The notes beneath the pieces were generated by a model. That model saw nothing but the letters and a program-made list of their open reading frames with translations, did no database searches and was not told the DNA's origin. A stretch of DNA of 64,000 bases. Origin: Methyloversatilis sp. RAC08. Its GTDB lineage: Bacteria; Pseudomonadota; Gammaproteobacteria; Burkholderiales; Rhodocyclaceae. Positions 19,441 through 36,441 of this stretch are shown here, one piece after another (within the stretch, counting starts at the first letter, position 1; each line of letters starts with the position of its first letter). The DNA is taken from the NCBI RefSeq assembly GCF_001713355.1, contig NZ_CP016448.1:744001-808000 (forward strand). Direction: 5' to 3'. The translations under genes and the position numbers were made by a program.

Positions 19441-19450
19441 GGCCGCCGCC

Positions 19451-19780: not shown

Positions 19781-19848
19781 TTGCCGGGTTTTCGTAACCA
19801 GCCCCCTCCACCTTCAACTTGCACTTCAACAACCGGGAGTCCTGCACC

Positions 19849-21015: not shown

Positions 21016-21024
21016 TCCGGTAAC

Positions 21025-21088: not shown

Positions 21089-21091
21089 CGT

Positions 21092-21886
21092 TTACGGCTG
21101 CAATGACCCAAGCGCGGCGACGCGCGCCGCGGCCATCGCCTTGCCGACCACGATCGCATCGGCACCGAGCGCACGGAACACCCACCCGGCTTCGCCCGGC
21201 AGCGCCGAGGCCCCGGCATACAGCCCTTCGCCAGAGATCGCGCGCAGCGCGTCCGGCAAGCCGGCGCATGCAGTCTGAGTCAGTATCCAGAGGCTACCCT
21301 GCACGCTGAACCCACCCGATACGCCGGGTTGCGCAGCGAGCCAGTCAGCGCCACGGATGCGCATCCGTTCGCGCGCCAGCAGCCGAGCGTCGCGGCCGGT
21401 GATGTCGATCGCCGTATCGATCAGCGCGAATGGCGCACCGCAGGCCGTCGGGTCGTGCGCGAGATAGGTTTCCGACACCAGCACGAGGGCACCCTCACCC
21501 AGCTTGACGCCGATGCGGGTATGCAGATGACTGCCCGGAAAAAGGATCTGCGGCGCCTGCAGATACTCGACCCGCGCGCCAGCACCGGCATCGATGTCGA
21601 CGGTCTGCGTCGCGCAGCCGCCGCGCATGGTGTGCACGATGGTCGATGCGGGCGTCGCCACATGCGCACGCGCACCCGACGCCACGGCAATGCGCCCGGT
21701 CACCGTGTCGTGCTCGAACAAGCCGCCCGACACCGACTGCAGGAAGACCGTGCAGCGACCGCGATCGATCGGATCTGTATACAGCGCGCGGCCGACATGC
21801 ACCGGGTAACGAACGTATTGCCGGGCAACGAAGCTGCGACCTTCCGCCGAAGCGAAATCCAGCTCGAAGCTGTGGCGTTCAGTCAA
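21092..21886 (-). CDS. ureD: Urease accessory protein UreD (UreH)
   Basis: A 264-residue UreD, which binds apo-urease with UreF and UreG so that nickel can be delivered. Family features are the N-terminal [29 protein letters not shown], the [14 protein letters not shown] segment, and [13 protein letters not shown], a UreD core. I place the start at TTG 21886: it lies eight bases inside the end of ureG, follows a GGAG site and gives the usual N-terminus. Upstream in-frame starts to 21937 only add ureG-overlapping sequence. It is the last gene of the urease operon. Confidence 0.88.
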
Positions 21887-22520
21887 ACAGAACTCCGCGC
21901 ACGATGGCATCGACCACCGCATCGACGCCTTCGCCACTGGCGCAGTTGGTGAGCAGGGTCGGCTTGCCGGCCCGCACCTCTTCGGCTTCGCGCGTCATGC
22001 GCGCCAGGTCCACGCGCACGAATGGCGCCAGGTCGGTCTTGTTGATGACCAGCAGGTCGCACTGCAGGACGCCCAGACCGCGCTTGCGCGGAATGTCGTC
22101 GCCGCCCGCGACATCGATGACGAACAGCCAGTAATCGACCAGGTCGAGCGAGAACGACGACGCCAGATTGTCGCCGCCACTTTCCACCAGAATCAGTTCC
22201 AGGCCCGGAAAGGTCCGGTCAAGTTCATCGGCCGCGGCGAGGTTGAGCGTCGGGTCTTCGCGTATCGCGGTGTGCGGACAGGCGCCGGTTTCGACCGCCA
22301 GCACGCGCTCCGGCGCGATGATGCCGCTGCGCCGGATGCGTTCGGCGTCTTCCGCGGTCACCAGATCATTGGTGATGACGGCGATATCGGTACCGCGTGC
22401 AATGAAGCGCGGAATGAGCTGTTCGAGCAGCGCCGTCTTGCCCGATCCGACCGGGCCGCCGACACCGACACGCGCCGCACCGCGCGGCTTCGCATACTGC
22501 AGGGGCATGACCGATGACAT
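21879..22520 (-). CDS. ureG: Urease accessory GTPase UreG
   Basis: A 213-residue SIMIBI-class GTPase that powers nickel insertion into urease. It has the P-loop [17 protein letters not shown], the metal-binding CPH motif in [31 protein letters not shown], and NKTDLAPFV for guanine recognition. Length is normal for UreG. It starts six bases after the end of ureC. Confidence 0.96.
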
Positions 22521-22526
22521 ACGGGG

Positions 22527-24239
22527 CTACCTCATCATGTAAAGGCGATTCAGCGGCACGTGGGTCGCCGGCGCGCAGCCGATCACGTGGTTGTCGACGC
22601 TGACTTCGAAGGTTTGCGGATTGACCGTGATGTTCGGCAGCGTGCCGTTGCGCACCATGTCGGCCTTGGTCAAGGTGCGCGTGCCGTGCACCGGCAGCAG
22701 TGCCTTGTGCAGATCGAGCCGCCCCTCGAGGTCGCGGCCGAGCGAAGCGGCGCAGACGAAGTTGGCCGACAGCGCCTGCGGTGCGCGGCCGAAGGCGCCC
22801 CACTGCGGTCGCATGATGAGCGGCTCGCAGGTCATCAGCGACGCAGCCGAATCGCCCATCGCGCCATAGGCGATGAAACCGCCCTTGACGACGATTTCCG
22901 GCTTGATGCCGAAGAAGGCGGGACGCCACAGCACGATGTCGGCCAGCTTGCCGGGTTCCAGCGATCCGACGTGCTGATCCACGCCGAAGGAGCGCGCCGC
23001 GTTGATCGTGTACTTCGCGATGTAGCGCAGGATGCGTTCGTTGTCGGCGCCGCGCGTGCGCTCCTCCGGCAGGCGGCCGAACTGGTCCTTCATCTTGCTG
23101 GCCAGTTGCCAGGTGCGGCAGATCACTTCATTGATGCGCCCCATGCCCTGGCTGTCGGAGCCCAGCATCGAGATCGCACCCATGTCGTGCAGCACGTCTT
23201 CGGCGGCAATGGTCTGCGCGCGGATGCGGCTTTCGGCGAACGCCACGTCCTCCGGCACGGCCGGGTTCAGGTGATGGCACACCATGATCATGTCGAGGTG
23301 TTCGTCGAAGGTGTTCACCGTGTAGGGGTTGGTCGGATTGGTCGATGACGGCAGGCAGTTGGCCTGGCCGACGACGCTGATCACGTCCGGCGCATGACCG
23401 CCGCCGGCGCCCTCGGTGTGATACATGTGGATGGTGCGGCCTTTGGTCGCCGCCAGCGTGTCTTCGAGAAAACCGGATTCGTTCAGCGTGTCGGTGTGCA
23501 GCTGCACCTGGAAATCCATGTCGTCGGCGACCGACAGGCAGGTGTCGATGGTGGCCGGCGTGGCCCCCCAGTCCTCGTGGATCTTCAGGCCGATGCAGCC
23601 GGCCTGCATCTGCTCGACCAGCGATTCCGGACGCGACGAATTGCCGCGGCCGAGAAAGCCGAAATTCATCGGCCATTGTTCCGACGCCTGCAGCATGCGC
23701 GCCACGTTCCATGCGCCGCCACAATCGATGCCGACCGTGATCGGGCCGAGCGAGCCGCCGAACATCGTCGTGATGCCGGACGCCAGCGCGTGCTCGACCA
23801 GTTGCGCCGAGTCGAAATGCACATGCACGTCGAGCCCGCCCGCCGTGGCGATCAGCCCTTCGCCATCGCGCACCGTCGTCGCGTTGCCGACCAGCAGCTG
23901 CGGATGCACGCCATCCATCACATGCGGATTGCCCGCCTTGCCGATGGCGACGATGCGCCCGTCCTTGATGCCGATGTCGCCCTTGACGATGCCGACCACC
24001 GCGTCGATCACCACGACATTGCTGATCAGCATGTCGAGTGCGCCCTGCGCCGAGGTCAGCCCGCCCATCATGCCCAGCCCGTCGCGCAGCGTCTTGCCAC
24101 CGCCGTGCAGGCATTCGTCGCCGGGTACGGCGAAGTCGTGTTCGATTTCGGCCAGCAGCGAGGTGTCGCCCAGACGCACCATGTCGCCCTGGGTCGGTCC
24201 GTACATCGCCGCATAGTCGCGACGGGTCAGCCATGCCAT
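22527..24239 (-). CDS. ureC: Urease catalytic subunit UreC (alpha)
   Basis: A 570-residue urease catalytic subunit, which hydrolyses urea to ammonia and carbamate at a dinuclear nickel centre. Visible active-site elements are GGLDVHVHF (HxH ligands; HVH in place of the more usual HIH), the carbamylated lysine in [20 protein letters not shown], the mobile-flap MVCHHL histidines, and [10 protein letters not shown] with the aspartate ligand. Full length. It follows the fused gamma-beta gene by 33 bases and probably assembles with it as an (AB-C) complex of the Helicobacter type. Confidence 0.96.
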
Positions 24240-24272
24240 GTCAATTCTCCCGGCAGTTCTTGTTCATGTCGG

Positions 24273-24983
24273 TCATGCCCCCCTGAAGCCGGCCTGCCGC
24301 GCGCGCACCAGCGCATCGGCCAGGCCGGCCTCGGTGTTGCTCGCGCCTTCGGTCAGCCGGTTCAGGCCGAACACCTCGCCCGTGCCACCGAAGGCGACCA
24401 GCGTGACTTCCTTCGATTCGCCCGGCTCGAAGCGAACGGCGGTGCCGGCTGCGATATCCAGATGCATGCCCCAAGCCAGCGCACGGTCGAAGTCGAGCGC
24501 GCGATTGACTTCGAAGAAATGGAAGTGACTGCCGATCTGTATCGGGCGATCTCCGGTATTGAGCGCTTTCAGCGTCGCGCTGCGGCGGCCTGCATTGACC
24601 TCGATGCTGCCTTCGGCTGGAATGATTTCTCCCGGTATGCGTGCGCGGCTGCCGCCGTTCGACATCTGTGCGCCGGGGCCGGGCCGTATCGGGTCATGCA
24701 CGGTCACCAGCTTGGTGCCGTCAGGAAAGCTGGCTTCGATCTGGATCATCGGCATCAGCGCCGCGACACCGGGCAGCACGTCGTCGGAATTCAGGATCTG
24801 CGAACCGAAGGCAATCATTTCCGCCACCGTGCGGCCGTCGCGCGCGCCTTCGAGAATCTCATCGACGATGAAGGCGATCGCCTCCGGGCAATTGAGCTTG
24901 AGCCCACGCGCACGTCGCCGCCGCGACAGTTCCGCCGCGTTGAAGATGGTCAGGCGTTCCAGTTCGGTCGGGGTCAGCAGCAT
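24273..24983 (-). CDS. ureAB: Fused urease gamma-beta subunit
   Basis: A 236-residue fusion. Residues 1-100 are the gamma subunit ([39 protein letters not shown]). Residues about 108-236 are the beta subunit ([51 protein letters not shown]). Most proteobacterial ureases have separate ureA and ureB genes; fusions are known in Helicobacter and some other lineages. Both halves look intact and the joint has no frameshift. There is an 82-base gap to ureF upstream. Confidence 0.95.
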
Positions 24984-25065
24984 GTCGTGCTCCTTCGCAG
25001 TTCATTCATCCGGTCGGTCCCTGTGTATGGCGCCATCGGTACTCCAGTCGGCATTCAGATGGTCT

Positions 25066-25776
25066 TCAATTGGCAAACAGACGCGCGCTGCGCGCTTCGT
25101 GGCGCATGGCGGCGATATCGAGTGCAGGCGTGCCGCTGCTCATGTCCTCGCGCGCTGGCGGCGGCTGCGACAGCACGCCGGCAATGACCGGACGCATGCG
25201 GGTCAGCAGACGCTGGCCATCGACGTGCCCGATCATCCCCATGCGCAGCGCAGCACCGATGATCGACGTGCACAGCCCGCCCGCCGCCATGGCATCGCAA
25301 CTGCCCGCGGGCAACCGGTACGCCGCCCACAGTGCGCCCTGCACCACCGGCAGGTGGCCCGGGGCGTGCCCGCCGCGCACAGTTTCCAGATAGCGCTGCG
25401 CGCACGCGACGCCGAGATCGGCGTGCATGCGGAGCTGCGTGAAGCCGAGTCGGCGACTGGCTTCGCGCCAGCCGCGCGTCAGCGACATCGCTTCGCACAG
25501 GCGGTCGAGGTCGCACAGGACATCGAGCAAGGCCGGTGTGTCGCCGCACGCCGTGAAGGCCTGGTGCGCCAGCTGCATCAGCGGCCGGTCGAGGCCAGCC
25601 CAGCGATGGCTCACCTGCGCCTGCAGCAGACCGAACACCTGTTCCGCATTGCTGACCTGCACGTCCAGGCGCAGCGATTCCAGCCCCCACGAAAAGGCGG
25701 TGGCACCGCCGGGAAAGAAGCTGTCGGAAAACTGCAGCATCGCCAGCTGCTGGTCGATGCCTGAGTCAATGTGCAT
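25066..25776 (-). CDS. ureF: Urease accessory protein UreF
   Basis: A 236-residue all-helical UreF, which bridges UreG and UreD during urease maturation. Family features are LQFSDSFFPGGATAFSWGLESL at the N-terminus, and a mid-region with repeated helices ending GHLPVVQGALWAAYRLPAG. The start overlaps the end of ureE by 11 bases. No nickel transporter gene lies nearby. Confidence 0.92.
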   Translation of the reverse strand: MHIDSGIDQQLAMLQFSDSFFPGGATAFSWGLESLRLDVQVSNAEQVFGLLQAQVSHRWAGLDRPLMQLAHQAFTACGDTPALLDVLCDLDRLCEAMSLTRGWREASRRLGFTQLRMHADLGVACAQRYLETVRGGHAPGHLPVVQGALWAAYRLPAGSCDAMAAGGLCTSIIGAALRMGMIGHVDGQRLLTRMRPVIAGVLSQPPPAREDMSSGTPALDIAAMRHEARSARLFAN

Positions 25777-26293
25777 GCGGCACCGGGATGTAGCGCACGC
25801 CGCCAGGGCCGGCGGGCGGCGCAGGATGCGGGTCGGCGCTTGGCCCGGCCTCGTCGCACACCTGCACGCAACCCCGCTGGATCAGGTGGGCGAGGCGCTG
25901 CAGATAGGCTTCCCGCGGGCCGTCCAGTGCGATGCACAGGCGTTCGCCGTCGAACCTGACCTTCCAGTGCATGTTGCCCGCGAAGTAGCCAAGTTCGAGC
26001 GCGTCCGCCGCATTGCCGGCCTGCAGCACGAGCCAGTGCGGTTCGTCGAGCAGCACGAGCACGGCGCGATCGTCGTCGAGCCACAGCACGGAGCCGTTCT
26101 GCAGCGTGGCGTCGCGGTCCAGCATCAGCGCCACCACGCTGCCGCGGTCGGTCCGCAGCTGCTGTCGGCGGCGCGCCATGTCACTGCGCGAGAGGCGCAC
26201 CGTTTCCAGGCCGCCTCGATGTTCGATGTCATGCAGCCTGTCCGCCAGCGCGGCGTCTGCGGCGCAGCCCAGAATGGTGGTCACACGAAGCAT
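25766..26293 (-). CDS. ureE: Urease accessory nickel chaperone UreE
   Basis: A 175-residue UreE. The N-terminal peptide-binding domain (LETVRLSRSDMARRRQQLRTDRG) is followed by the metal-binding domain with the conserved AGNMHWKVRFDGERL-type region, seen here as YFAGNMHWKV. The C-terminus ends VPHAH, a very short His-containing tail compared with the His-rich tails of Klebsiella UreE. It is the first gene of the urease operon and probably has its own promoter in the 184-base gap upstream. Confidence 0.88.
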   Translation of the reverse strand: MLRVTTILGCAADAALADRLHDIEHRGGLETVRLSRSDMARRRQQLRTDRGSVVALMLDRDATLQNGSVLWLDDDRAVLVLLDEPHWLVLQAGNAADALELGYFAGNMHWKVRFDGERLCIALDGPREAYLQRLAHLIQRGCVQVCDEAGPSADPHPAPPAGPGGVRYIPVPHAH

Positions 26294-26477
26294 TGACGGG
26301 TCCGGTTCAAGATGGGATTAGCAAGTCGGGTAGCAAGTCGGCTTGACACATGTTCGAGAACACGCCGGTGCTGAAGGCACGTCACGTGCCCCCAGCGTGT
26401 GCCCGGAGCGCTGTTTGCCAACAACCCGCCGCCGAACGGCCGCACACCGTCCGACGGCGGGCGCAGCAACTACCCGC
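26294..26477. other. Intergenic region upstream of ureE with repeats
   Basis: It holds a GC-rich hairpin directly after the orphan urtA stop, two palindromes (TGTTC-GA-GAACA at 26351-26362 and GGCACGT-C-ACGTGCC at 26376-26390) and a tandem direct repeat TAGCAAGTCGG at 26319-26329 and 26331-26341. These may be operators for ureE. No clear -35/-10 pair reading toward ureE was found. Confidence 0.5.
26425..26461 (-). terminator. GC-rich hairpin after orphan urtA
   Basis: Arms CCCGCCG-T-CGGACGG and CCGTTCG-G-CGGCGGG (minus strand reading) can pair across a short loop starting 16 bases after the urtA stop. The following run is only GTTGTTGG, so it is a weak terminator or a processing/stability hairpin. 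Read-through into the urease operon is possible. Confidence 0.45.
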
Positions 26478-27656
26478 TCAGATAGTCGGGAAAGGGTTGG
26501 GCTCGATCAGCGGTGATTCGTAAATCATGTTGACCTGACCGTCGGCGCCGAATGCACCGATGCGCGCCTGCTTCCACAGGTGATGGTTGGTGCCGTGGAA
26601 TCTCACCAGGCCTTCCGGTCCGGTGAATTCGAGATTGGCCGACGCGGCGATCACCTTGTCCACATCGAAACTCTTGGCCTTTTCCACCGCCATCTTCCAC
26701 AGATAGACCGCGGTGTAGGCGCACGCCAGCGTGTCGCCGGTGACGCGCTTCTGGCCGTACTTGGCCTTGAACGCAGCCACGAATTTCTTGTTCGCCGGAT
26801 TGTCGAGACTCTGCAGGTAGCTCATGCAGGTCAGCACGTCCTGCACGTTCTCGTTGCCGATGCCCGACACCTCTTCTTCCGACACGGCGAAGGCCATCAC
26901 CGTGGTTTTCTTCATGTTGACGCCGGCCGCCTTCAGCTGCTTGTAGAACGCCACGTTCGATCCGCCGACGATGGTGCTCAGGATGATGTCGGGCTTGACC
27001 GCCTTGATCTTGTTGATGGTCGAGCCGAAGGACGTGCTGCCCAGCGGCATGTATTCCTCGCCGAGCACCGACCCGCCACCCTTGACGATGGTCGGCCGGG
27101 CAATCTTGTTGGTGACGCGCGGCCAGATGTAGTCGGAACCGATCAGGTAGAAGGTCTTGCCGCGGTTTTCGAGCAGCCAGTTGCAGCCCTGCACGCATTG
27201 CTGGGTCGCTTCGTGCGCGGTGTACAGGATGTTGGGCGACTGTTCCTGTCCTTCGTAGTAGGTCGGGTAATAAAGCAGCCCCTTGGCCTGTTCGAACACC
27301 GGCAGCACCGCCTTGCGCGATGCCGACGTGTAGCAGCCGAACACCGCGGCCACCTTGTCCTGTCCGAGCAGTTTCCGGGCCTTTTCGGCGAAGGTGGGCC
27401 AGTCGCTCGCGCCGTCTTCGACCACCGGCACGATCTTCTTGCCGAGCACGCCGCCGGCTGCATTGATTTCGTCGATGGCGAGCTTTTCGGCGTCGACCAC
27501 AGAAGCTTCGGCCAAAGCGATGGTACCGGTCAGCGAATGCAGGATGCCGACCTTCACCACATCCTGCTGCGCGAACGCAGTACGCATCATCGTCGGGCCC
27601 GCCACGGATGCCAGGGCGAGTGCTTTCACCAGATCACGACGCAGATTACTTTTCAT
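26478..27656 (-). CDS. Second UrtA-like substrate-binding protein without its own permease
   Basis: A 392-residue UrtA/FmdD-type periplasmic binding protein. The signal peptide (MKSNLRRDLVKALALASVAGP, cleavage near FAQQ) has a possible twin-arginine motif. The core begins VVKVGILHSLTGTIALAEAS and has the same strings as the first UrtA (IVPVVEDGASDWPTFAEKA, GLLYYPTYYEGQE). No permease or ATPase follows, so it probably feeds UrtBCDE with a different ligand. The ATG at 27656 follows GAGGG. Its 5' leader contains a promoter, a hairpin and an intrinsic terminator matching those upstream of dmfA1, predicting amide-induced antitermination. Confidence 0.9.
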   Translation of the reverse strand: MKSNLRRDLVKALALASVAGPTMMRTAFAQQDVVKVGILHSLTGTIALAEASVVDAEKLAIDEINAAGGVLGKKIVPVVEDGASDWPTFAEKARKLLGQDKVAAVFGCYTSASRKAVLPVFEQAKGLLYYPTYYEGQEQSPNILYTAHEATQQCVQGCNWLLENRGKTFYLIGSDYIWPRVTNKIARPTIVKGGGSVLGEEYMPLGSTSFGSTINKIKAVKPDIILSTIVGGSNVAFYKQLKAAGVNMKKTTVMAFAVSEEEVSGIGNENVQDVLTCMSYLQSLDNPANKKFVAAFKAKYGQKRVTGDTLACAYTAVYLWKMAVEKAKSFDVDKVIAASANLEFTGPEGLVRFHGTNHHLWKQARIGAFGADGQVNMIYESPLIEPNPFPTI

Positions 27657-27764
27657 GTTTCCCTCGAAAGAAATGGGTGGATAAGGTTTGGATGACTCAA
27701 GACAGCACAGCGCAGACGACAAAATTTGCTGCAACGCCACATTGCCATTTGCGAAAAAAGAACG

Positions 27765-27807
27765 AAAAAAAGGCCTGGCGGATCCGGGGATCCGCACAGG
27801 CCTTTTT
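27765..27807 (-). terminator. Leader attenuator terminator upstream of orphan urtA
   Basis: Reading the minus strand, AGGCCTG, a bulged T, then GCGGATC pair with GATCCGC and CAGGCCT across the tetraloop CCCG. This is a 14-base-pair stem followed by a T-rich tract (A run at 27765-27770 on the plus strand). It lies about 110 bases before the start codon, inside the leader, so it should stop transcription unless prevented. The same structure with the same bulge is at 33083-33124. Confidence 0.85.
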
Positions 27808-27817
27808 GCCTTTCTTT

Positions 27818-27839
27818 GCACCGGCAATGCTGGCGATGC
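27818..27839 (-). promoter_or_regulatory. Leader hairpin P1, candidate ANTAR target (urtA copy)
   Basis: Reading the minus strand, GCATCG pairs with CGGTGC. Inside is a C-G pair closing the hexaloop AGCATT next to a C/C mismatch. It begins about eight bases after the predicted transcription start and 14 bases before the terminator stem. A second hexaloop stem (AGGC/GCCT) can form just upstream of and overlapping the terminator, so it would compete with it. Confidence 0.55.
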
Positions 27840-27853
27840 GAAGAGTTACATTG

Positions 27854-27882
27854 ATACTAGTGAGCCGATTGCAGCGAGTCAA
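27854..27882 (-). promoter_or_regulatory. Sigma-70 promoter for orphan urtA
   Basis: The minus strand reads TTGACT, a 17-base spacer, then TAGTAT. Both boxes are near consensus and the spacing is optimal. The predicted start is near 27847, giving a leader of about 190 bases. Confidence 0.75.
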
Positions 27883-28002
27883 GCACTGTTTTCAGTAAAT
27901 CGAATACGCCGAATTTGCACTTTTTTTGTTGCAACGCATCACCCGCGCAGAGGCAAACCGCCGGGCTCCGATTTCCCCCGGCTCGGCACTTCAGGCATGC
28001 CG

Positions 28003-28296
28003 TCAGCCGCGCATCCGGTACATGAAGATGCAGCGCCCCTGCTGCCCCGCTTCGAAGCCGGCGACCGGATGGAGCCGGTGTCTTGCCACCATGAAGTCGA
28101 CGACCGTACGGGCGGCGGCAGGCGACAAGGTCGGCTTCCATATCCATATGTCTTGCTGGCTGTCGATGCCGCAGACCGAAAAGAGCGCCTGCTCGGCATC
28201 GTCCGCCATGCCAATGGCCCACTCTTCCGTCTTCGCGCCGAATTCCTTGATGTAGCTGAGGCACTCGAACTTGATCTGCTGCACGCTGAAGGTCAT
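28003..28296 (-). CDS. Unknown 97-residue protein, last gene of the dmf operon
   Basis: A small soluble protein: MTFSVQQIKFECLSYIKEFG at the N-terminus, a central IDSQQDIWIWKP strand and a C-terminal GRCIFMYRMRG. I recognise no family. It has three cysteines spread out (about 12, 42 and 89) and no signal peptide. It starts four bases after the Sel1 gene stop and is therefore co-translated with the dimethylformamidase operon. A role in enzyme maturation or in handling the product is possible but unsupported. Confidence 0.7.
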   Translation of the reverse strand: MTFSVQQIKFECLSYIKEFGAKTEEWAIGMADDAEQALFSVCGIDSQQDIWIWKPTLSPAAARTVVDFMVARHRLHPVAGFEAGQQGRCIFMYRMRG

Positions 28297-28300
28297 CGTG

Positions 28301-28981
28301 TCACCCCGGAACCGGCACCAGTCGAGCAGGCGATGACACCGCTGCCGTCCGGGTCCGCCATTGATCGAACTGCGTCGCCCCCCGGTGCTTCTCTTCCACC
28401 GACATCTGACCGACGATGCCTTCGAGCGCGCTCAGCGCGGTGCCGACGCCATGCTGCGCGGCCAGCGAAAGCCAGGCGAAGGCCTGCGCGCGGTCCTTCT
28501 CCACACCGAGTCCGTTCGCGTACATGAAGCCCAGGCGCGCCTGCGACGGGTAGTGACCCTGTTCGGCCGCGCGTCGATACCAGTGTGCGGCGGCCGCCTC
28601 GTCGTGCGGTACGCGGTCGCCCTTGAAGTGGAGCGTGGCGAGATTGCTCTGCGCCATGGCGTCACCGGCCTGCGCGGCGCGGGTCAGCCAGTGCAGTCCA
28701 GCCACGGGATCGGCAACCGTGCCCTGCCCCATGACGAGCATCGCGCCGACATTGGTCTGCGCCGGAACATGATCCTGCTCGGCCGCCCGCAGATACCACG
28801 CGAACGCCGCTTCGAGATCGGCCGTCACCCCTTCGCCATTGGCATGCAGCGACCCGAACCACGCCTGCGCCTCCGGGTCTCCCGCCTCAGCCAGCGCGGC
28901 AAAGCGTTCATGGGCGTCGGCCAGGTGGCCTTCGCGGTAGGCTGCGACGGCTGCATCAACGGGTCTTGACGAGGTGTTCAC
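28301..28981 (-). CDS. Sel1-repeat (TPR-like) protein
   Basis: A 226-residue protein built of Sel1-like repeats: AQAWFGSLHANGEGV, AQTNVGAMLVMGQGT, AQSNLATLHFKGDRV and SQARLGFMYANGLGV, each about 36 residues. There is no signal peptide. Sel1 repeats are protein-interaction scaffolds. I choose the GTG at 28981, which follows AAGGA and lies 10 bases after the upstream stop; a longer frame begins at 29008. Its place in the dmf operon suggests a scaffold or assembly factor for the dimethylformamidase, which is inference. Confidence 0.82.
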   Translation of the reverse strand: MNTSSRPVDAAVAAYREGHLADAHERFAALAEAGDPEAQAWFGSLHANGEGVTADLEAAFAWYLRAAEQDHVPAQTNVGAMLVMGQGTVADPVAGLHWLTRAAQAGDAMAQSNLATLHFKGDRVPHDEAAAAHWYRRAAEQGHYPSQARLGFMYANGLGVEKDRAQAFAWLSLAAQHGVGTALSALEGIVGQMSVEEKHRGATQFDQWRTRTAAVSSPARLVPVPG

Positions 28982-28991
28982 GGGGTGTCCT

Positions 28992-29936
28992 TCATGGGTT
29001 CGTTGCAAGATCGAAGGCGTCGAGGCGCTGCGTCATTTCGCAGGCCAGCCATGACGCGACGGCGTCGTCGGCCCGGGTCGGTGCATCTGCCGCCCTGTCC
29101 GACAGACGTTCTCCGATCAGCGCCAGCCAGTCACTCAAGGGCAGTGCGCCTTCACCCAGCACGGTGATACGGCACAGCGTGCGCGTCAGCGCGACGGGTT
29201 GCAGCACGACGGCACACACGGCGTGCTGCAGCGCCAGCAAAACGAGATTCGGAAACAGCCAGAGCGCCCTGGCCGGCAGGCCGGCGAGGGTGGTGTCAGC
29301 CAGCAGTACCGAGGCACCGAAGGCACGCGGCAGTTGTTCCGCGGCGAGCAGACGCTGAGCCACGCGCTTCCAGTTGCCGTCGACCTCCTGCCATTGACTG
29401 CCCTGCAGCGGCATGTCCTGCTGCGACAGCACTGGAACCGCGGCCTGCAGCGATCTGGCCGTGTCGATGATCGCCGCGCCGTGCGGATCGAGATTGACGC
29501 ACAGCAGCGGCCCGATCCGGTCGACGCGGACCGGCAGCAGGCGCTCCGGTCGCAGACCGAGATACTGGTGCATTTCAGGCGTCGCATCGCCCAGTTCCGA
29601 CGCCGCAATGACCGGCCGGTCGCGGCTGTGTCCGCACGACGTGAATGAGCACGGTGTCTTCGTGCCCTGCTGGCATTGCACCGGCACCACACGGCAGCCG
29701 CCGTGCTGGGCCTTGTTGAATCGACCCGTGAGTACGTCACCCGCCATCCTCTGGATATGAACGGCGTGATCGCCCGCAGTGAAGGGCAACAGATCACCCA
29801 CACCCGCCAGTTCATGCGTCGTTCCGACGCACACCCAGTCGCGTGTCCAGATCACATCGTCTTCGCGCCGGGCCATGCGCAGCGACCGGAACGCCGAGGC
29901 ATCCAGCGCGACCGGTCGAATCATTTCATCCAGCAT
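28992..29936 (-). CDS. Degenerate ring-hydroxylating oxygenase alpha-subunit homologue
   Basis: A 314-residue protein whose N-terminal half follows the Rieske oxygenase alpha-subunit pattern (DWVCVGTTHEL, then QHGGCRVVP, then MHQYLGLRPERLLPVRVDRIGPLLCVNLDP). The metal ligands are changed. The usual C-x-H is Ala76-Gln-His78. The usual C-x-x-H is Ser100-Cys-Gly-His103. The region after the NWK motif (188-190) lacks the D-x2-H-x4-H iron ligands. It therefore probably holds neither a normal 2Fe-2S nor a mononuclear iron centre. The ATG at 29936 follows a strong GGAGG. The position right after dmfA2 suggests an accessory rather than catalytic role. Confidence 0.78.
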   Translation of the reverse strand: MLDEMIRPVALDASAFRSLRMARREDDVIWTRDWVCVGTTHELAGVGDLLPFTAGDHAVHIQRMAGDVLTGRFNKAQHGGCRVVPVQCQQGTKTPCSFTSCGHSRDRPVIAASELGDATPEMHQYLGLRPERLLPVRVDRIGPLLCVNLDPHGAAIIDTARSLQAAVPVLSQQDMPLQGSQWQEVDGNWKRVAQRLLAAEQLPRAFGASVLLADTTLAGLPARALWLFPNLVLLALQHAVCAVVLQPVALTRTLCRITVLGEGALPLSDWLALIGERLSDRAADAPTRADDAVASWLACEMTQRLDAFDLATNP

Positions 29937-30012
29937 GCAGCCTCCTTCCGCGACAGCTTCGTATGGCTGGCGCGCGCCTGCCCACCGATATTGCAGCGGG
30001 CAGGCGCGGCGC

Positions 30013-32409
30013 TCAGGTGGATGACGCCAGCGCCGGCGACTCGTAATCCGCGCGACCGCGGTGCTTGAACGCTTCCTTCGGCGCAGCCGGCAGCGGGCCG
30101 TCCTGCATGAAGCGGTCGAGCACATTCTTGGTCAGACGCGAAATGTTGTTGTCGCAGTTGTTCCAAGGCAGCGAACCGCAGTAGGCGATCGAGCTGAACG
30201 CGAAGCAGCCGCCGCCATTCGGCGTTTCGTGGAAGGTCACGTCGGCACGCACCCGCGGATGCACGGTGCCGTCCAGACCTTGCTGGTTGAAGCCGAAATC
30301 CTCCATCACCAGCAGGTAGGCCTCGGTATGGCGGCCGGCCGACGTGGCGACGGTGAGGATGTGCGGCGGCGAACCGAGCATGGTGTCGACGATGTCCAGT
30401 TCCAGTCCGGCCGCGCCACCGCCGACCAGACCGAAATTGCCCAGATCCTCTTCATAGGTGATGCCGTCGAAGGCCCAGCTCACTCGCGGATCCAGGCTTT
30501 CCGGCGTGCGCGTGAAGTAGGACGAAATATCGAAGCCTTCGGACGACATGCCGGTACCGGCCACCGAATGAAGGTAGCGGCCGCGATAGCGCCACATGCC
30601 GCCGAGCTCACCGGTACCCTGGTGGTAGTACTCGCCGGGGTCGGCGCGCCAGGTGCGGATGCCGGATTCGCAGCGGCGCATTTCGGTGACGACGCCACGG
30701 CCCAGACCGTCGTAGGCCGGGTGGAATGAATGCACCCAGTACCAGGCGTCGGCACCCATATACATCAGGCGACCGCCACGCTGCGTGTAGTTGTGCAGGG
30801 CATCGAGCTGGGTGCCCGAGTTGTGCTCCGGGTGCGAGCCGGTGATGATGACGTTGTAGTTCTCCAGCCGCGCCAGACCGTCGTAGGTCGCGTCTTCGTC
30901 GGTGAACACGTCGTACTCGTAGCCCATCTGTTCGAGCCAGCAGATCAGATGCAGGTCGGCCGGGTACTGCCAGGGTGCCTGGGCCAGGAAGTGGTCGTAC
31001 TTCGGTCGGATGCTCAGGATGGGGCGCAGCCGCGACGACAGGCAGATGCCGCTGCCGTCGGTGTGGGTGTCGTAGATCGAGCCGCCGTATTCGCGGTGCT
31101 CGGCGAGGAACATGTTCTGCTGCTGCATGATGGGCACGCGGTAGATGAACAGTTCCGCACCGCCTGCGTTGCACGCCACATGCTCGTTCGCGTAGGCCAT
31201 GTAACTGATGGTCGGCACCATGACCGCGATCTTCGACTGTTCCTGGCCGATCTTCGGCACGATCCAGAACGGGATGTACTCTTCATCGCCCTCGGGCGTG
31301 GTCAGCTTGGCGGCATAGAAACGGCTCTTGATGTCGGTCGGTACCGTCCACTCGAAGCTCACCTCCCAGCGCGCGTTGTCGAGGTCGTCGTCGTGGAAGT
31401 GAATGGCGCCATATTCCTTCGGCGCCACCTTCCAGTCGAAGGTCTGGCCAGCCCAGTTGTAGCCGGTCAGCGCACGCGTCGGACAATTCACCAGGGTGGC
31501 GTTGAAACGATACGGACCGGCGTCCTTCGCCACCAGCGTGTCGATGCCATCGGAAAAATCCCAGGCAGCCACGATGGCTTCCGACAGTGCGCCGGTCGGG
31601 CCTGCGTTGCGGCGTTCGGTCAGGCCGGGCTGCGCGCCGCCCTTCATCATTTCGATCTCGAAGCGCGACAGGGCGCGATTGCACAGGCGCGGGCTGTCCA
31701 ATTTGCCGTTGTAGTGGCCACCGACGATGACGCCTTGCGGCAGCGACGGCAGCCCCAGTGGGCCCGGCTCGAGATGATCGACATAGCCGGCGATCACCAG
31801 TGGCTGGTCGGTGTGTTCAACCTTGCCCTTGAACACCGCCTTGAGCGGCGGAATCTCCGGGTCCAGCGCATAGACGACCTGCGGCTCGTGGTGCAGCACC
31901 ACTTCGCCGGTCAGCGCGTCGAAGCTGGCGGCGATGAAGTGCCAGGCGTGGTCGCGCAGCGGCGCACCATTCGTGTAAGTCTCGCCATTGATGCGCAGCT
32001 CGACGCAGCCGTCGGTGTTGATGAACAGGCCGTAGCCCTTGCCACCGGACCACTTGGTCACCAGCCCCTGTGCACCGTGCTTCCAGTAGCGCTTGTCGGT
32101 CTTGGGCGTGGTCGGCCAGATCCAGCACTGCAGCGTGAAACTGTCTGGCTTGAGTTGCGGCGCGTCAGGCACGAAGCCGTACGAGCCGCCGTAGACGACC
32201 TGCTTGATGCCGTCATACACGCCTTCGCAATCGGCCTTCACCGCCTTCTCGATGAAGCCGGGGCCGCGCGGATTGGTGTCGCCGTTGATCATCTGCACGA
32301 CGGACGCTTCGTACTTCGCGGGACCGTCGCAATTGACGTAGAACCTGATCGTATCGCCCGGGTGGACGCCGAACTTGTCGGCGTATCCGGTCAGTCGCAT
32401 TGCACACAT
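30013..32409 (-). CDS. dmfA2: N,N-dimethylformamidase large subunit
   Basis: A 798-residue large (beta) subunit of dimethylformamidase, which hydrolyses N,N-dimethylformamide to dimethylamine and formate. Residues about 85-255 form a LamG/concanavalin-like domain (FTLQCWIWP, SRFEIEMMKGG). Residues about 390-700 form a domain with a glutamine-amidotransferase-like stretch (CWLEQMGYEYDVFTDEDATYD, NVIITGSHPEHNS). The Paracoccus enzyme uses an iron centre with two tyrosines and a glutamate. Candidates here are Tyr403 or Tyr406, Tyr441 or Tyr446, and Glu528, by position only. The start at 32409 follows GGAGAAA; ATG 32400 is an alternative. It lies 134 bases after the small-subunit gene. Confidence 0.9.
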   Translation of the reverse strand: MCAMRLTGYADKFGVHPGDTIRFYVNCDGPAKYEASVVQMINGDTNPRGPGFIEKAVKADCEGVYDGIKQVVYGGSYGFVPDAPQLKPDSFTLQCWIWPTTPKTDKRYWKHGAQGLVTKWSGGKGYGLFINTDGCVELRINGETYTNGAPLRDHAWHFIAASFDALTGEVVLHHEPQVVYALDPEIPPLKAVFKGKVEHTDQPLVIAGYVDHLEPGPLGLPSLPQGVIVGGHYNGKLDSPRLCNRALSRFEIEMMKGGAQPGLTERRNAGPTGALSEAIVAAWDFSDGIDTLVAKDAGPYRFNATLVNCPTRALTGYNWAGQTFDWKVAPKEYGAIHFHDDDLDNARWEVSFEWTVPTDIKSRFYAAKLTTPEGDEEYIPFWIVPKIGQEQSKIAVMVPTISYMAYANEHVACNAGGAELFIYRVPIMQQQNMFLAEHREYGGSIYDTHTDGSGICLSSRLRPILSIRPKYDHFLAQAPWQYPADLHLICWLEQMGYEYDVFTDEDATYDGLARLENYNVIITGSHPEHNSGTQLDALHNYTQRGGRLMYMGADAWYWVHSFHPAYDGLGRGVVTEMRRCESGIRTWRADPGEYYHQGTGELGGMWRYRGRYLHSVAGTGMSSEGFDISSYFTRTPESLDPRVSWAFDGITYEEDLGNFGLVGGGAAGLELDIVDTMLGSPPHILTVATSAGRHTEAYLLVMEDFGFNQQGLDGTVHPRVRADVTFHETPNGGGCFAFSSIAYCGSLPWNNCDNNISRLTKNVLDRFMQDGPLPAAPKEAFKHRGRADYESPALASST

Positions 32410-32543
32410 GGTGTTCGTTTCTCCAGGTCGAGCGCCGCCCTCCGGGGTGTCGGATGCGTTGCTTGAAATTGTCGGAAAGTGCGTACCCGGGCGTCGGTGC
32501 CGGGGTCGCTGGATGAACTGCTGTCGGCGCGACCGGCGCGGTG

Positions 32544-32984
32544 TCAGGTGACCGGCCAGTTGTCGTCGCGGCGCTTGTAGCCTTCGTGGTAATGCTCGGG
32601 GAAGCCGTCGGATTCGGGCATCTCATCGAGTCGCATCAGGAAGATGGCGTGCTGGATGTCCTGCTCGCTGGTATAGACATCGTCGGTCGCGAAGACCGGC
32701 GGCACGCCACGGATGCCTGACAAGCGCCCGATGCGCCATTCGGCATCGATGCGGGTACAGATGACGACCAGCTTGCCCTTCGTCGAGGCGCCGCGCATGC
32801 GCAGCAGCACGCGCTTGAGCAGCGGGTCTTCATGCACGCCGCCGCTGATGACGGTGGTGTCGCCCGGCGTGGCGCACTTGAGCACCGAAAAACCGGCGAC
32901 GCCCGCCATCGACTGCACGCACTCGAGATGCTCCCGGATCAGGCGATCGCGCTCCGGCGTGCCTTTCTTCGGTATTGAAATCAT
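32544..32984 (-). CDS. dmfA1: N,N-dimethylformamidase small subunit
   Basis: A 146-residue small (alpha) subunit of dimethylformamidase (MISIPKKGTPERDRLIREHL; C-terminal HYHEGYKRRDDNWPVT). It partners the large subunit in an alpha2-beta2-type enzyme in the cytoplasm. Size and position directly before dmfA2 agree with the known dmfA1-dmfA2 pair. A strong AAGGAG site precedes the ATG. Its leader carries a promoter, a hairpin and an intrinsic terminator, so expression should be controlled by antitermination. Confidence 0.87.
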   Translation of the reverse strand: MISIPKKGTPERDRLIREHLECVQSMAGVAGFSVLKCATPGDTTVISGGVHEDPLLKRVLLRMRGASTKGKLVVICTRIDAEWRIGRLSGIRGVPPVFATDDVYTSEQDIQHAIFLMRLDEMPESDGFPEHYHEGYKRRDDNWPVT

Positions 32985-33082
32985 CGGTCAGACTCCTTCA
33001 GAACACGGAAATTGGATGGAAAACCGATCATCAATCCCTGGACGCTGCAGCCAGCCTGTTGCAGCGCGGCAAGACAAAAGAC

Positions 33083-33124
33083 AAAAAAAAGGGCCTGCCG
33101 AATCCGGAGATTCGAGCAGGCCCT
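33083..33124 (-). terminator. Leader attenuator terminator upstream of dmfA1
   Basis: Reading the minus strand, GGGCCTGC, a bulged T, then CGAATC pair with GATTCG and GCAGGCCC across the tetraloop TCCG, followed by eight T. The stem has 14 base pairs and the same single bulged T as the copy upstream of the orphan urtA, with different bases in several pairs. It lies about 100 bases before the dmfA1 start. Confidence 0.87.
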
Positions 33125-33137
33125 TTTGCCTTGCCCC

Positions 33138-33159
33138 ACATCGGCAGTGCTGGCGATGT
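33138..33159 (-). promoter_or_regulatory. Leader hairpin P1, candidate ANTAR target (dmfA1 copy)
   Basis: Reading the minus strand, ACATCG pairs perfectly with CGATGT. The inside has a C-G pair closing the hexaloop AGCACT. Against the urtA copy, the outer pair changes G-C to A-T and another changes T-G to T-A, so pairing is kept while bases differ. The distance to the terminator (14 bases) is identical in both copies. Confidence 0.6.
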
Positions 33160-33173
33160 GAAGAGATAGCTCA

Positions 33174-33203
33174 ATACTAGTCACGCCCGCTGCACTGCGT
33201 CAA
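33174..33203 (-). promoter_or_regulatory. Sigma-70 promoter for dmfA1
   Basis: The minus strand reads TTGACG, an 18-base spacer, then TAGTAT. The predicted start is near 33167. The -35 side lies within the 49 bases before the divergent amiC start, where a plus-strand TAGTAT (33211-33216) could serve as the amiC -10, so the two promoters may overlap. Confidence 0.7.
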
Positions 33204-33251
33204 GCTCTGTTAGTATCAATTTCGTTTTTCGCTCTCCGCTTTCACTGTCCT

Positions 33252-34424
33252 GTGTCCAACTCCGATCCGGTCAAGGTCGGCGTCCTGTTTTCGCGCGAGG
33301 GCGTGACCTCGCGCATCGAAAACTCGATGCTGCTCGGCACGCTCTTCGCCATACGTGAAATCAACGATGCCGGTGGCCTGAATGGCCGCGAACTGGTGCC
33401 GGTGTATTACGACCCGCACTCCAGCCCGCAGATGTTCAAGTCCCTCGCCACGCGGCTGGTGCTTGAAGACAAGGTGAATGTCATCTTCGGCTGCTACATG
33501 TCGAGCACGCGCAAGGCGATACTTCCGGTGGTCGAGAAGTGGAACCGCCTGCTGTTCTGCCCGACCATGTACGAAGGCTTCGAGTTTTCGGACAACGTCA
33601 TCTACACCGGCGGCGCACCGAACCAGAACAGCGCACTGCTGGCCGACTACATGGCGAGCCGCTTCGGCGCGCGGGTCTACATGGTGGGCAGCGACTACAT
33701 CTTTCCGTATGAGTCGAACCGCATCATGAGCGACTTCGTACACCAGCGGCAGGGCGGCGCGAAACTCGGTGAGCGCTACGTCCGGCTGGACGCCCAGGAA
33801 AGCGCCTTCGCGCCCATCATCAAGGACATTAAGGCCAAACAGCCCGATTTCATTTTCTCGACGGTCGTTGGACGGACGACCCGCATGTTCTATCAGGCCT
33901 TCGCCGATGCAGGCCTTGATCCGGCGCGCATGCCGATAGCCAGCCTGTGCACCAGCGAGGAGGAAATCGCCGAAATGGGCACGCGCATCGCCGAAGGTCA
34001 CTACACGGCGGGCCCCTATTTCCAGTCGATCGACACCGAACGCAACCGCAGCTGCCTGGCGCACTTCCGCAAGCTTTTCGGTACCCAGGTCGAACCCAAC
34101 ATGAGCTGGGAGTCGTCTTACAACCAGGTGCACCTGTTCGCCGGCGCATATGCCGCCGCAGGCAGCGACGAACGCGATGTGCTGCTGCCGCACCTGCTGG
34201 GCCTGGAATTCGATGCGCCGCAGGGCCGCATCCGCGTCAATCCGAACAATCACCACACGCGGCTTTTTCCGCGCATCGGTCGCGTCAACGCCAGCGGGCA
34301 ATTCACGATACTGGCGGAAACGCTGTCGGGCGTTGAACCTGACCCCTATCTGGTCAGTCATTCGTTCGACGACTGGAGCAATCGCCTGCGCGTGCTTTCC
34401 GACGACCAGACCCGTCGTGAGTAG
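33252..34424 (+). CDS. amiC: AmiC-like cytoplasmic amide sensor
   Basis: A 390-residue periplasmic-binding-protein fold without a signal peptide (begins MSNSDPVKVGVLFSREG), as expected for the cytoplasmic amide receptor AmiC. Family strings are NVIFGCYMSSTRKAILPVVE, RLLFCPTMYEGFEFSDNVIYTGG and VYMVGSDYIFPYESNRI. In Pseudomonas, AmiC binds AmiR and holds it inactive until an amide binds. The GTG at 33252 is the first start in frame; no clear ribosome-binding site is seen. It overlaps amiR by eight bases. The ligand is likely dimethylformamide, formamide or a similar small amide. Confidence 0.9.
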   Translation: MSNSDPVKVGVLFSREGVTSRIENSMLLGTLFAIREINDAGGLNGRELVPVYYDPHSSPQMFKSLATRLVLEDKVNVIFGCYMSSTRKAILPVVEKWNRLLFCPTMYEGFEFSDNVIYTGGAPNQNSALLADYMASRFGARVYMVGSDYIFPYESNRIMSDFVHQRQGGAKLGERYVRLDAQESAFAPIIKDIKAKQPDFIFSTVVGRTTRMFYQAFADAGLDPARMPIASLCTSEEEIAEMGTRIAEGHYTAGPYFQSIDTERNRSCLAHFRKLFGTQVEPNMSWESSYNQVHLFAGAYAAAGSDERDVLLPHLLGLEFDAPQGRIRVNPNNHHTRLFPRIGRVNASGQFTILAETLSGVEPDPYLVSHSFDDWSNRLRVLSDDQTRRE

Positions 34425-35052
34425 CCCGGCCCGCCCCTCCAGCCGCGGCGCGCGGCTCACGCCGGAATTCCTCAGGCAGCTGCGCAGCCTGCGCGTCGCC
34501 GTGCTGCATCCGAAGGACGAAGACGGCGAAACCCTGACCCAGCAGTTGCAGCGCATCGGCTGTCAGGTGCAGACCTTCTGGCCGCCGGTGCCCGATTTGC
34601 CTGACAACGTTGACCTGGTGTTCTGTGCCGTTGACCAGGATGTGCTCGGCATGTCGTTCAACTGGGTCCGTCAGGAACAGCCGCCGGCGGTGATTGCCAT
34701 CATCAGCTATGAAAACCCGACCATCTTCGACGCCATGATCAAGCTGGGTGCAACAGGCGTGCTCACGGCGCCGATCCGTTCGACCGGCATCCTGTCGACC
34801 CTGGTGCTCACGGTCGGTCTGAACGAAGCGATGCGCAAGGCCGAGAAACGCGTGCTCAGGCTCGAGCAGAAGCTGCTGGGCATCAACCAGATCAACGAAG
34901 CGAAATCCATCCTGATGCGCACGCGCAATGTCGGCGACAGCGAGGCCTACCGCATCATCCGCGAACAGGCGATGAGCCGTCGCGTGCCGACCGAAGAAAT
35001 CGCGCGCGCCATCATTCACGCGAATTCCATCCTGTCAGGGCCGACGGGTTAA
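34417..35052 (+). CDS. amiR: AmiR-like ANTAR transcription antiterminator
   Basis: A 211-residue protein. Residues about 25-130 form a pseudo-receiver (LRVAVLHPKDEDGETLTQQL, VDLVFCAVDQD) in which a proper phospho-acceptor site is not evident. A coiled-coil linker (about 137-160) leads to a C-terminal ANTAR RNA-binding domain (about 160-207: INEAKSILMRTRNVGDSEAYRIIREQAM). I choose GTG 34417, which overlaps the amiC stop by eight bases, giving coupled translation of sensor and antiterminator. ANTAR proteins bind paired hairpins in leader RNA and prevent terminators; two such leaders lie close by. Confidence 0.93.
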   Translation: MSSPARPSSRGARLTPEFLRQLRSLRVAVLHPKDEDGETLTQQLQRIGCQVQTFWPPVPDLPDNVDLVFCAVDQDVLGMSFNWVRQEQPPAVIAIISYENPTIFDAMIKLGATGVLTAPIRSTGILSTLVLTVGLNEAMRKAEKRVLRLEQKLLGINQINEAKSILMRTRNVGDSEAYRIIREQAMSRRVPTEEIARAIIHANSILSGPTG

Positions 35053-35080
35053 GGCCTGCCGGCATATCTGCAGTACCGAA

Positions 35081-35106
35081 GGGCGTGCATGGGCACGCCC
35101 TTTTTT
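35081..35106 (+). terminator. Intrinsic terminator after amiCR
   Basis: GGGCGTGC (35081-35088) and GCACGCCC (35093-35100) pair across ATGG, followed by six T. It lies 28 bases after the amiR stop. Confidence 0.9.
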
Positions 35107-35157
35107 GTTTCTGCACGCGCGGAAGCACCGGAAATCCCTTGGTTCGACTCGACCTTC

Positions 35158-35174
35158 TGCACCAACTTGGTGCA
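35158..35174. promoter_or_regulatory. NtrC-consensus palindrome upstream of porin copy 2
   Basis: TGCACCAACTTGGTGCA matches the NtrC consensus TGCACCA-N3-TGGTGCA in all 14 half-site bases. It is 134 bases before the porin start, a usual enhancer distance. I could not find a good sigma-54 box in between: TGGGGCATGGCCGGCT at about 35218-35233 keeps only the GG/GC spacing. Confidence 0.55.
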
Positions 35175-35307
35175 CAATGCGCCGCGCATCACCCGGCCAC
35201 CCCGTCACGCCCCACGATGGGGCATGGCCGGCTGCATCAAGCGGAGACCCGGCAGCACAGAACCGGGTCCCGCACCGAGCCACGGCACACCAAAGGACAC
35301 TCACCCC

Positions 35308-36441
35308 ATGACGAAGAGGACTTCCCGCCTGCGACGCGGGCCGCTCGCCTTCACGCTCGCTACCGGTCTGGCCGCCGCGGGCAATGCCTTCGCCGGCCCG
35401 ACCTTCACCGGACCGGGCGACAGTTCGCTGACGCTCGGGCTGTGGTCGAGCGCAGCCTATACGAGCGCCGAACAGGCCGACGGGTCGCATGACAGCGACC
35501 TGCGGCTCGATTCATTCCGCATCATCACGGTCGCGAGATTCACGAAACAGATCGGCCTGATGACCAATTTCGCGCGCCTGTCGGGTGAGTCGATGCGCCT
35601 GCTCGATCTGGTCGGGCAATTCACACTGACCGACAGCGTCAATCTGTGGGTCGGCCGCCACGTCGTGCCGGGCGACCGGCAGCAGATGGCCGGGCCCTAC
35701 TTCGCCAATGTGTGGGAGTACCCCATGGTGTCGCGCAACCCCAACGCCTACACCGGGCGCGATGACGGTGCGACGTTGTGGGGCAGCGTGTTCGACCGTC
35801 GGCTGCAATACATGGTCGGCGCATTCCAGGGCAAGAACCGCGGTGAGGACATGTCGAACGCGTCGCATCAGCTGCTGTACGCGACCCGCTTCGCATGGAG
35901 CTTCCGCGACCGGGAATCGGAGTATTTCAACAGCAACCACTACTACGGTGAAAAGGAAATACTGACCCTCGGCGCCGCCTGGCGGACCCAGAAGGACGGC
36001 GTAGGCACAGCGCTGAACCGCGGTGACTACACCGCCTGGAGCCTCGACGCACTGATGCAGACACGCCTGTCCGACGGCGCCGTGGTGACGCTCGAAGGCG
36101 CCTGGTACGACTACGACACCGACGGCGTCGCCGACATTTCACCGGCCGATCCGGGCTGCAGCCGTGTCACGAACTGCGGCGGTGCCGTCCAGGGCGACGC
36201 CTGGCTGGTCACGGCCGGCTACCTGTTCCCGACGAAGATCGGCATCGGCCGCTTCGAGCCGAACATCCGCTATCAGGAATTCCGGCCCGACACAGGCGCC
36301 CGCAACGACCAGTGGGACGTCGGCGTGAATTACGTCATTTCGGGTCATAACGCGCGGCTGAGTGCCTTTTACTCAGAGATGGGCAGCGACGGCGCAAGCT
36401 CGCGCAACCGCTTCATCCTCGGGCTGCAACTGATGTACTGA
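35308..36441 (+). CDS. FmdC-type outer-membrane porin (copy 2)
   Basis: A 377-residue porin with a signal peptide (about 1-31, cleavage near NAFAG) and a C-terminal aromatic residue (GLQLMY). It is clearly a paralogue of the porin at 19849-21015: shared stretches include GPYFANVWEYPMVS, AYTGRDDGA/AFTGRDDGA and the YDYDTDGVAD strand. It probably passes amides or urea across the outer membrane. An AAAGGA site precedes the ATG. It is a single-gene unit behind the amiCR terminator with an NtrC-like site upstream, so it may respond to nitrogen status rather than to amides. Confidence 0.85.
   Translation: MTKRTSRLRRGPLAFTLATGLAAAGNAFAGPTFTGPGDSSLTLGLWSSAAYTSAEQADGSHDSDLRLDSFRIITVARFTKQIGLMTNFARLSGESMRLLDLVGQFTLTDSVNLWVGRHVVPGDRQQMAGPYFANVWEYPMVSRNPNAYTGRDDGATLWGSVFDRRLQYMVGAFQGKNRGEDMSNASHQLLYATRFAWSFRDRESEYFNSNHYYGEKEILTLGAAWRTQKDGVGTALNRGDYTAWSLDALMQTRLSDGAVVTLEGAWYDYDTDGVADISPADPGCSRVTNCGGAVQGDAWLVTAGYLFPTKIGIGRFEPNIRYQEFRPDTGARNDQWDVGVNYVISGHNARLSAFYSEMGSDGASSRNRFILGLQLMY

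Follow-up and report, generated by a model that had tools for sequence, protein, structure and literature searches.

Paired leaders ahead of a dimethylformamidase-family operon and a urtA-urease cluster in Methyloversatilis are probable AmiR-controlled attenuators with a variant hexaloop

Introduction

RNA leaders targeted by ANTAR-domain proteins follow a recognizable plan. The Pseudomonas aeruginosa amiE leader, controlled by AmiC-AmiR, is described with a first hairpin (P1), a second hairpin (P2) and a terminator (PMC3369931, PMC3369936). The EutV leaders of Enterococcus faecalis carry two hexaloop hairpins, the second of which overlaps the terminator, and the NasR/NasT nitrate-assimilation leaders are a further case of ANTAR antitermination in nitrogen metabolism. 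Published targets are reported to have A at position 1 (A1) and G at position 4 (G4) of both loops (PMC3369931, PMC7496416, PMC3369936). Here we analyze two leaders in a 64-kb stretch (the window) of NZ_CP016448.1, the single 3.94-Mb contig of the Methyloversatilis sp. RAC08 genome. One precedes a dmfA1-like gene with amiC and amiR next to it, the other precedes urtA. We consider it likely from the sequence comparisons below that both are AmiR-controlled transcription attenuators, of a dmfA-like operon and a urtA-urease operon, belonging to a variant with A at loop position 4 (A4).

The locus resembles the amiE system in its AmiC and AmiR homologs and in the order of P1, P2 and terminator. It differs in the target genes and in the loops, which are A1/A4 here and A1/G4 in both amiE loops by published description (PMC3369931). 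With the EutV leaders it shares the paired hexaloops and the overlap of the second hairpin with the terminator, and its AmiR keeps the equivalents of EutV Lys149, Tyr164, Arg168, Met172 and Arg175; unlike in EutV, Glu160 is replaced by Asp, Arg142 by Ile and the loop G4 by A4. From the NasR/NasT leaders it is set apart by the loop code and by having AmiC as sensor partner, and the genome also has, next to its NasT-like gene, a leader with G4 in both loops.

Two leaders built on one attenuator plan

Both leaders are on the minus strand, between promoter-like boxes and their respective genes, and each consists of P1, a linker, a terminator with one bulged T and a weaker alternative hairpin, P2 (Table 1, in which the positions of boxes, hairpins and terminators have been verified against the sequence). 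They fold more stably than dinucleotide shuffles (z of -5.45 for the dmfA1 leader and -4.85 for the urtA leader), with terminator stem energies of -25.0 and -24.1 kcal/mol, respectively, and a P2 energy of -4.3 in each. A scan of the window for the P1-P2-terminator combination returned three sites, the two leaders and one at position 36449 that was judged a chance or coding-region match and not counted as a leader; 20 shuffled windows yielded two sites in total. These data bear out the first-pass annotation, which had described twin leaders with a common succession of P1, spacer, bulged-T terminator and T run. The P1-terminator spacer, which it gave as exactly 14 bases, has that length in the dmfA1 leader and, read by eye, 14 to 15 in the urtA leader according to which A-T pairs are counted. 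The TTGAC(T/G) and TAGTAT boxes are present as annotated, but the boxes alone are not significant because a scan of positions 17000 to 36500 found three sites, two of them the leader boxes, and shuffles give 2.8.

In both leaders the first bases of the terminator 5' arm are also P2 bases, in agreement with the overlap that had been proposed for the second, AGGC/GCCT stem with its hexaloop. Since P2 uses the start of that arm, P2 and the terminator are expected to be mutually exclusive. Position 4 is occupied by A in all four loops. No Rfam family reached the gathering score anywhere in the window.

Compensatory changes preserve P1, P2 and the terminator

Across the genus, the 22 leaders (see below) have 13 distinct P1 arm pairs. 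Their first eight pairs show 96% pairing, against a mean of 82% with swapped 3' arms, and none of 2,000 shuffles reached the observed value; a one-base bulge was permitted where pairing was gained (4/22 leaders). In 39 leaders of AmiR systems from many families, two-sided changes occur in 16 of the 20 P1/terminator pairs, extending the earlier observation, made on the two window leaders, that pairing survives base changes. For P1 and terminator together, 93.7% of cells are paired, compared with 69.9% after shuffling (score 0.682 versus 0.230), a percentage that is biased upward because the scan that gathered the leaders demands the hairpins. P2 has 89.1% of cells paired, with two-sided changes at two of its four pairs.

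Bases shared by P2 and the terminator change in concert. At alignment columns 34/46/79 (P2, shared arm and terminator 3' arm), the triple is GCG or ATA in 39/39 leaders; at columns 33/47/78 it is GCG in 14 and ATA in 7, the other 18 having no standard P2 pair (16) or a G-U pair (2). Such triple changes match the expectation for a terminator/antiterminator pair, lending further credence to the proposed P2 overlap. In the 39-leader consensus, the P1 hexaloop sits above a mismatch, and the closing pair is C-G in 39/39 for both P1 and P2, a pair that the scan required in P1, while in P2 it accepted C-G or G-C. Besides the window site at 36449, scan matches at loci L034, L037, L125, L140, L159, L160 and L172 (six P1 strings altogether) were dropped by hand as chance or coding-region matches.

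The leaders follow AmiR across Methyloversatilis

AmiR is encoded in 11 of 13 Methyloversatilis genomes, and both leaders were found in all 10 AmiR-bearing genomes other than that of the window, giving 22 leaders with the window pair. Searched with a covariance model of these 22, every one of the 11 genomes gave exactly two matches scoring over 90 bits; where AmiR is lacking, one genome (G201) tops out at 29.6 bits and the other (G202) has no match. A second model, made from the 39 diverse leaders, likewise found two matches over 60 bits per AmiR-bearing genome and nothing else above 40 bits across the 13 genus genomes (the first-look candidates scored per genome were capped at 126 or 150 in these searches). 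Because both models include genus leaders, their scores are not independent evidence; the absence from the AmiR-less pair is. A NasT-like ANTAR protein is present in 13/13 genomes and the leaders only in the 11 with AmiR, which indicates that the leaders follow AmiR.

AmiR loci in other families show the plan again. Of 48 leader-bearing loci beyond the genus, 27 have a urtA relative within 1.5 kb after the leader, a count that leaves out L082 and L086, where the match is to amiC; on two further contigs the sequence stops too early.

That the leaders act by AmiR-type antitermination, as had been predicted from the window alone, appears well supported: the leaders are conserved together with AmiR, their stems change in a compensatory way, P2 overlaps the terminator, and amiC-amiR lies alongside. 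Apart from the pairing bias noted above, what speaks against this reading is that the genus leaders were first gathered with a pattern requiring both A1 and A4, and that P1 folded as a single sequence favors a tetraloop, with A1 and U6 paired (-6.2 and -7.3 in the two window leaders), over the hexaloop form (-5.3 and -6.4). A scan blind to position 4 recovered 20 of the 22 genus leaders, and the covariance models found no further ones.

The second model also matched the host genome weakly at 502482 (38.5 bits) and 684597 (30.4 bits). Both places have the appearance, by eye, of terminators that closely follow gene ends, and neither region contains a site accepted by the P1+P2 scan. The urt-formamidase operon of the window (12993 to 21015, plus strand) has no leader match from either model. 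Eight genus genomes encode a further ANTAR protein (L319 to L326), with no leader found by the scan within about 1.5 kb.

Loop position 4 is associated with AmiR residue 160

All 22 genus leaders have A1 and A4 in both loops, where A1 is an independent observation only for the two window leaders since the pattern and scans required it. Because they lack the G4 of published targets, these leaders are placed as a variant of the ANTAR dual-hexaloop system and not as standard members. The first-pass annotation had treated the A at position 4 as weakening the match to the consensus. The A is real; it is not a failed match, however, being fixed in the genus leaders and going together with Asp at the AmiR equivalent of EutV Glu160. 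In the crystal structure of EutV with RNA, Arg142, Lys149 and Glu160 form bonds to G4 of P2, which stacks on Tyr164, and the E160A substitution is reported to cause a 60-fold loss of binding affinity (PMC8934654). At these four positions the AmiR of the window has Ile, Lys, Asp and Tyr, so that two of four G4-contacting residues are retained; the Asp, residue 171 when numbering begins at 34426, is encoded by the GAC codon at 34936 to 34938. In the AmiR of structure 1qo0, by its alignment, positions 160 and 164 are Glu and His.

AmiR loci of other families were scanned requiring A1 and ignoring position 4, gaps being filled with the second model. Several genomes were present twice, and we counted distinct protein-leader combinations, 15 of 111 loci being excluded for want of a leader. 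Glu160 goes with P1 G4 in 40/40 combinations, and any other residue goes with P1 A4 in 54/57. In P2, A4 is found in 56/57 non-Glu combinations. The pattern held when distant lineages were added: in 107 AmiR rows with leaders, each carrying the P1 of the first listed leader only, Glu corresponds to P1 G4 in 55/55 and Asp, Lys, Arg, His, Ile or Ala to P1 A4 in 51/52 (23 of 130 rows without a leader and six distant ANTAR proteins, L277 to L282, were excluded). Among alignment columns with enough data, column 160 was the best predictor of the P1 base in sequence clusters other than its own, at 0.91 compared with 0.80 for the next column and a baseline of 0.53 (rows weighted at 80% identity, 39.1 effective). 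Residue 143 (Asn) was also considered as the determinant; residue 160 fits better because L130 and L135 carry Arg143 with A4. A link between Lys147 and G4 of P2 was dropped, given the conflict between NasT (Arg147, G4) and L077, L080 and L083 (Arg147, A4).

The NasT-like protein offers an internal comparison. It has Glu160 in 13/13 genus genomes, and a leader lies beside its gene at 11 of 13 loci, with P1 loops AACGNN, P2 loops ARGGGY and G4 in both loops in 11/11, in a search that demanded A1 and not any base at position 4. The A4 and G4 codes are consequently found side by side in 10 of the 11 AmiR-bearing genomes.

Taken together, the associations tip slightly toward a switchable one-residue/one-base ANTAR code, in which Glu160 would select G4 in P1 and other residues would go with A. 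On this same joint reading, held with no more than a slight preference, the lineages that switched code may have changed protein and hairpins together and need not cross-talk with NasT in the same cell. A number of observations pull the other way. The three non-Glu exceptions in P1 are L178 (Thr149, Asp160, Phe164), which has G4, and two tandem second units of Paraburkholderia oxyphila, with G4 and T4 next to Lys160; in addition, P2 carries G4 in one leader of an Asp160 genome. A4 in P2 is compatible with Glu, since P2 in the Glu160 combinations is A4 in 29, G4 in 8 and T4 in 2 of 39. Seven distant Glu rows (L266, L272, L273, L275, L276, L283 and L294) rest on weak leader matches of 18.7 to 31.7 bits, in three of which P2 starts with T. 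Residue and loop are, moreover, inherited by clade with few independent switches (3-4), leaving the association suggestive, not conclusive. The tree shows at least four changes at residue 160 and at least five of the P1 base; only three independent pairs lie on supported branches, of which, averaged over 200 pairings, 2.8 have the base going in the same direction and none in the opposite one. The sign test for independent switches has a median p of 0.25, a test that cannot reach significance with the available pairs.

The P. oxyphila loci L228 (6075 to 6260, plus strand) and L229 (5683 to 5864, plus strand) each contain two complete P1-P2-terminator units in tandem, with starts about 105 bases apart and P1 A4 in the first unit and G4 or T4 in the second.

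Proposed mechanism and alternatives

From the leaders, their covariation, their co-occurrence with AmiR and the residue/loop association, all of them read from sequence, we infer a course of events for binding, read-through, inducer response and insulation. With no inducer, AmiC would keep AmiR inactive and RNA polymerase would halt at the strong hairpin ahead of dmfA1 or urtA. An amide ligand would cause AmiC to release AmiR, whose ANTAR domains could then grip the P1 and P2 hexaloops; the stabilized P2 would capture the base of the terminator 5' arm and block the terminator, and the dmfA-like operon and urtA-urease genes would be transcribed together. The loops recognized by this AmiR lineage would be A1/A4 instead of A1/G4, since its protein carries Asp in place of Glu160, which in EutV forms a hydrogen bond to G4. 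Insulation of AmiR from NasT would follow from the NasT system of the same cells retaining Glu and G4.

AmiR might, alternatively, control both leaders with position 4 relaxed, the match at residue 160 then reflecting shared ancestry and not recognition. The few independent switches and the frequent A4 or T4 of P2 with Glu160 (31/39) agree with this, but the P1 split among the 107 rows is nearly complete, A4 holds in separate Lys and Arg/His lineages, with Ile/Ala rows nested among Asp rows, and the best predictor among the tested columns is the very residue that bonds G4 in the EutV crystal. We judge a relaxed position 4 to be possible but rather unlikely.

The remaining alternatives dispense with AmiR or with regulation. 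Were the hairpins plain terminators that insulate divergent transcription, the strength of the terminators and the divergence of amiC and dmfA1 would be accounted for; no role would be left, however, for the unvarying core of the P1 loop, for P2 or for the triple changes of P2 and terminator, and the hairpins sit between promoter-like boxes and gene, which makes this very unlikely. Control of both leaders by NasT or a different ANTAR protein of the genome is highly improbable, given that the leaders are absent from the two genomes with NasT and without AmiR and that the leaders adjacent to nasT have different, G4 loops, even if a NasT-like protein occurs in 13/13 genomes. Least probable of all is a small-molecule riboswitch or a ribosome-controlled attenuator of some different type, a reading invited by short structured leaders ahead of metabolic genes; the window has no Rfam family at gathering score, and the P1-P2-terminator plan fits ANTAR targets and co-occurs with AmiR.

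Preferring AmiR control, we see here the likely circuit by which methylotrophs control a dimethylformamidase-family operon and a urease cluster. A1/G4 loops served as the seed of the first ANTAR target search (PMC3369931); a later actinobacterial search tolerated a single point variation and reported A1 and G4 to be more than 50% conserved (PMC8164766). Should A4 systems prove real, part of the AmiR targets may have been overlooked or under-scored, and one swap would suffice to test a rule of ANTAR specificity. In the titles and abstract openings covered, a scope with the subscription literature mostly outside it, no report was found of AmiR control of dimethylformamidase-family or urease operons, or of an A4 loop code.

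Genes at and around the leaders

The regulator next to dmfA1 combines AmiR_N and ANTAR domains with an AmiC partner, as expected of an AmiR, the identity that the first-pass annotation had given it (Table 1). Sequence similarity also places the DmfA2-like protein in the dimethylformamidase family: it resembles the large subunit of the Paracoccus N,N-dimethylformamidase (6LVB), has the DMFA2_C domain and keeps S395, Y399, Y440, H519 and E521, including the Fe ligands Y399, Y440 and E521, unlike at N547, which aligns with Asp here (hand-counted on the alignment; residue roles from PMC7686228). The small subunit match is marginal. The family assignment in the first-pass annotation therefore stands, and its identification of the enzyme as a dimethylformamidase is unproven, dimethylformamide being a putative substrate: a large-subunit paralog of the same genome (L010/L306, genome positions 3053385 to 3055664) scores 649 bits against 6LVB and the window DmfA2 523. 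No such leader was found in the 12 kb scanned around this paralog. DmfA2 relatives, within the limited flanks compared, occur at 19 of 136 loci, all of them the window, genus genomes or same-genome records.

The urtA gene had been called an orphan, but UreAB and UreC come after it on the same strand. The remaining genes of the cluster we tentatively take to be ureE, ureF, ureG and ureD from sequence features, and urtA and the urease genes presumably share one transcript.

Table 1. Features of the two leaders and neighboring genes, in window coordinates
Feature	Position	Strand	Remarks
Promoter-like boxes, dmfA1 leader	33174..33203	-	TTGACG, 18, TAGTAT; consensus scan
P1, dmfA1 leader	33134..33163	-	Hexaloop AGCACT at 33146-33151, C-G closed, C.C mismatch below; conserved, compensatory changes
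P2 (putative antiterminator), dmfA1 leader	33118..33131	-	AGGC-AAAAGG-GCCT; 3' arm within terminator 5' arm
Intrinsic terminator, dmfA1 leader	33083..33123	-	Stem 33091-33123, T tract 33083-33090
Promoter-like boxes, urtA leader	27854..27882	-	TTGACT, 17, TAGTAT; consensus scan
P1, urtA leader	27814..27843	-	Hexaloop AGCATT at 27826-27831, above C.C mismatch
P2, urtA leader	27798..27811	-	AGGC-AAAAAG-GCCT
Intrinsic terminator, urtA leader	27765..27805	-	Stem from 27772, A-T extension to 27805, T tract 27765-27771
dmfA1-like small subunit	32544..32984	-	Weak match to dimethylformamidase small subunit 6lvb_B, E 0.03
DmfA2-like large subunit	30013..32409	-	PF20254 DMFA2_C, E 1.4e-90; 6lvb_A, E 1e-155
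urtA, urea-type ABC transporter binding protein	26478..27656	-	First gene after second leader; TIGR03407 over cut-off
Urease genes downstream of urtA	21092..26293	-	UreAB 24273-24983, UreC 22527-24239 by family match
amiC, amide-sensor partner of AmiR	33252..34424	+	Divergent from dmfA1; AmiC of 1pea/1qo0, E 9.9e-87
amiR, AmiR_N + ANTAR	34426..35052	+	Start codon provisional; PF21332, PF03861; 1qo0_D, E 1.5e-25

Downstream of dmfA2 there is also a Sel1-repeat gene, and the segment between the two (28992 to 30125, minus strand) has a weak Rieske-type/glycine betaine monooxygenase match (E 3.3e-7). Farther away, a 1,234-amino-acid open reading frame read from a TTG start (9258 to 12962, minus strand) has HisKA, HATPase_c and receiver domains and a long N-terminal part that by eye resembles a membrane transporter; a response-regulator-like gene, also recognized by eye, lies beside it (8360 to 9277, minus strand). 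Because the HisKA frame lies divergent from the urt-formamidase operon, that operon may have a sensor of its own.

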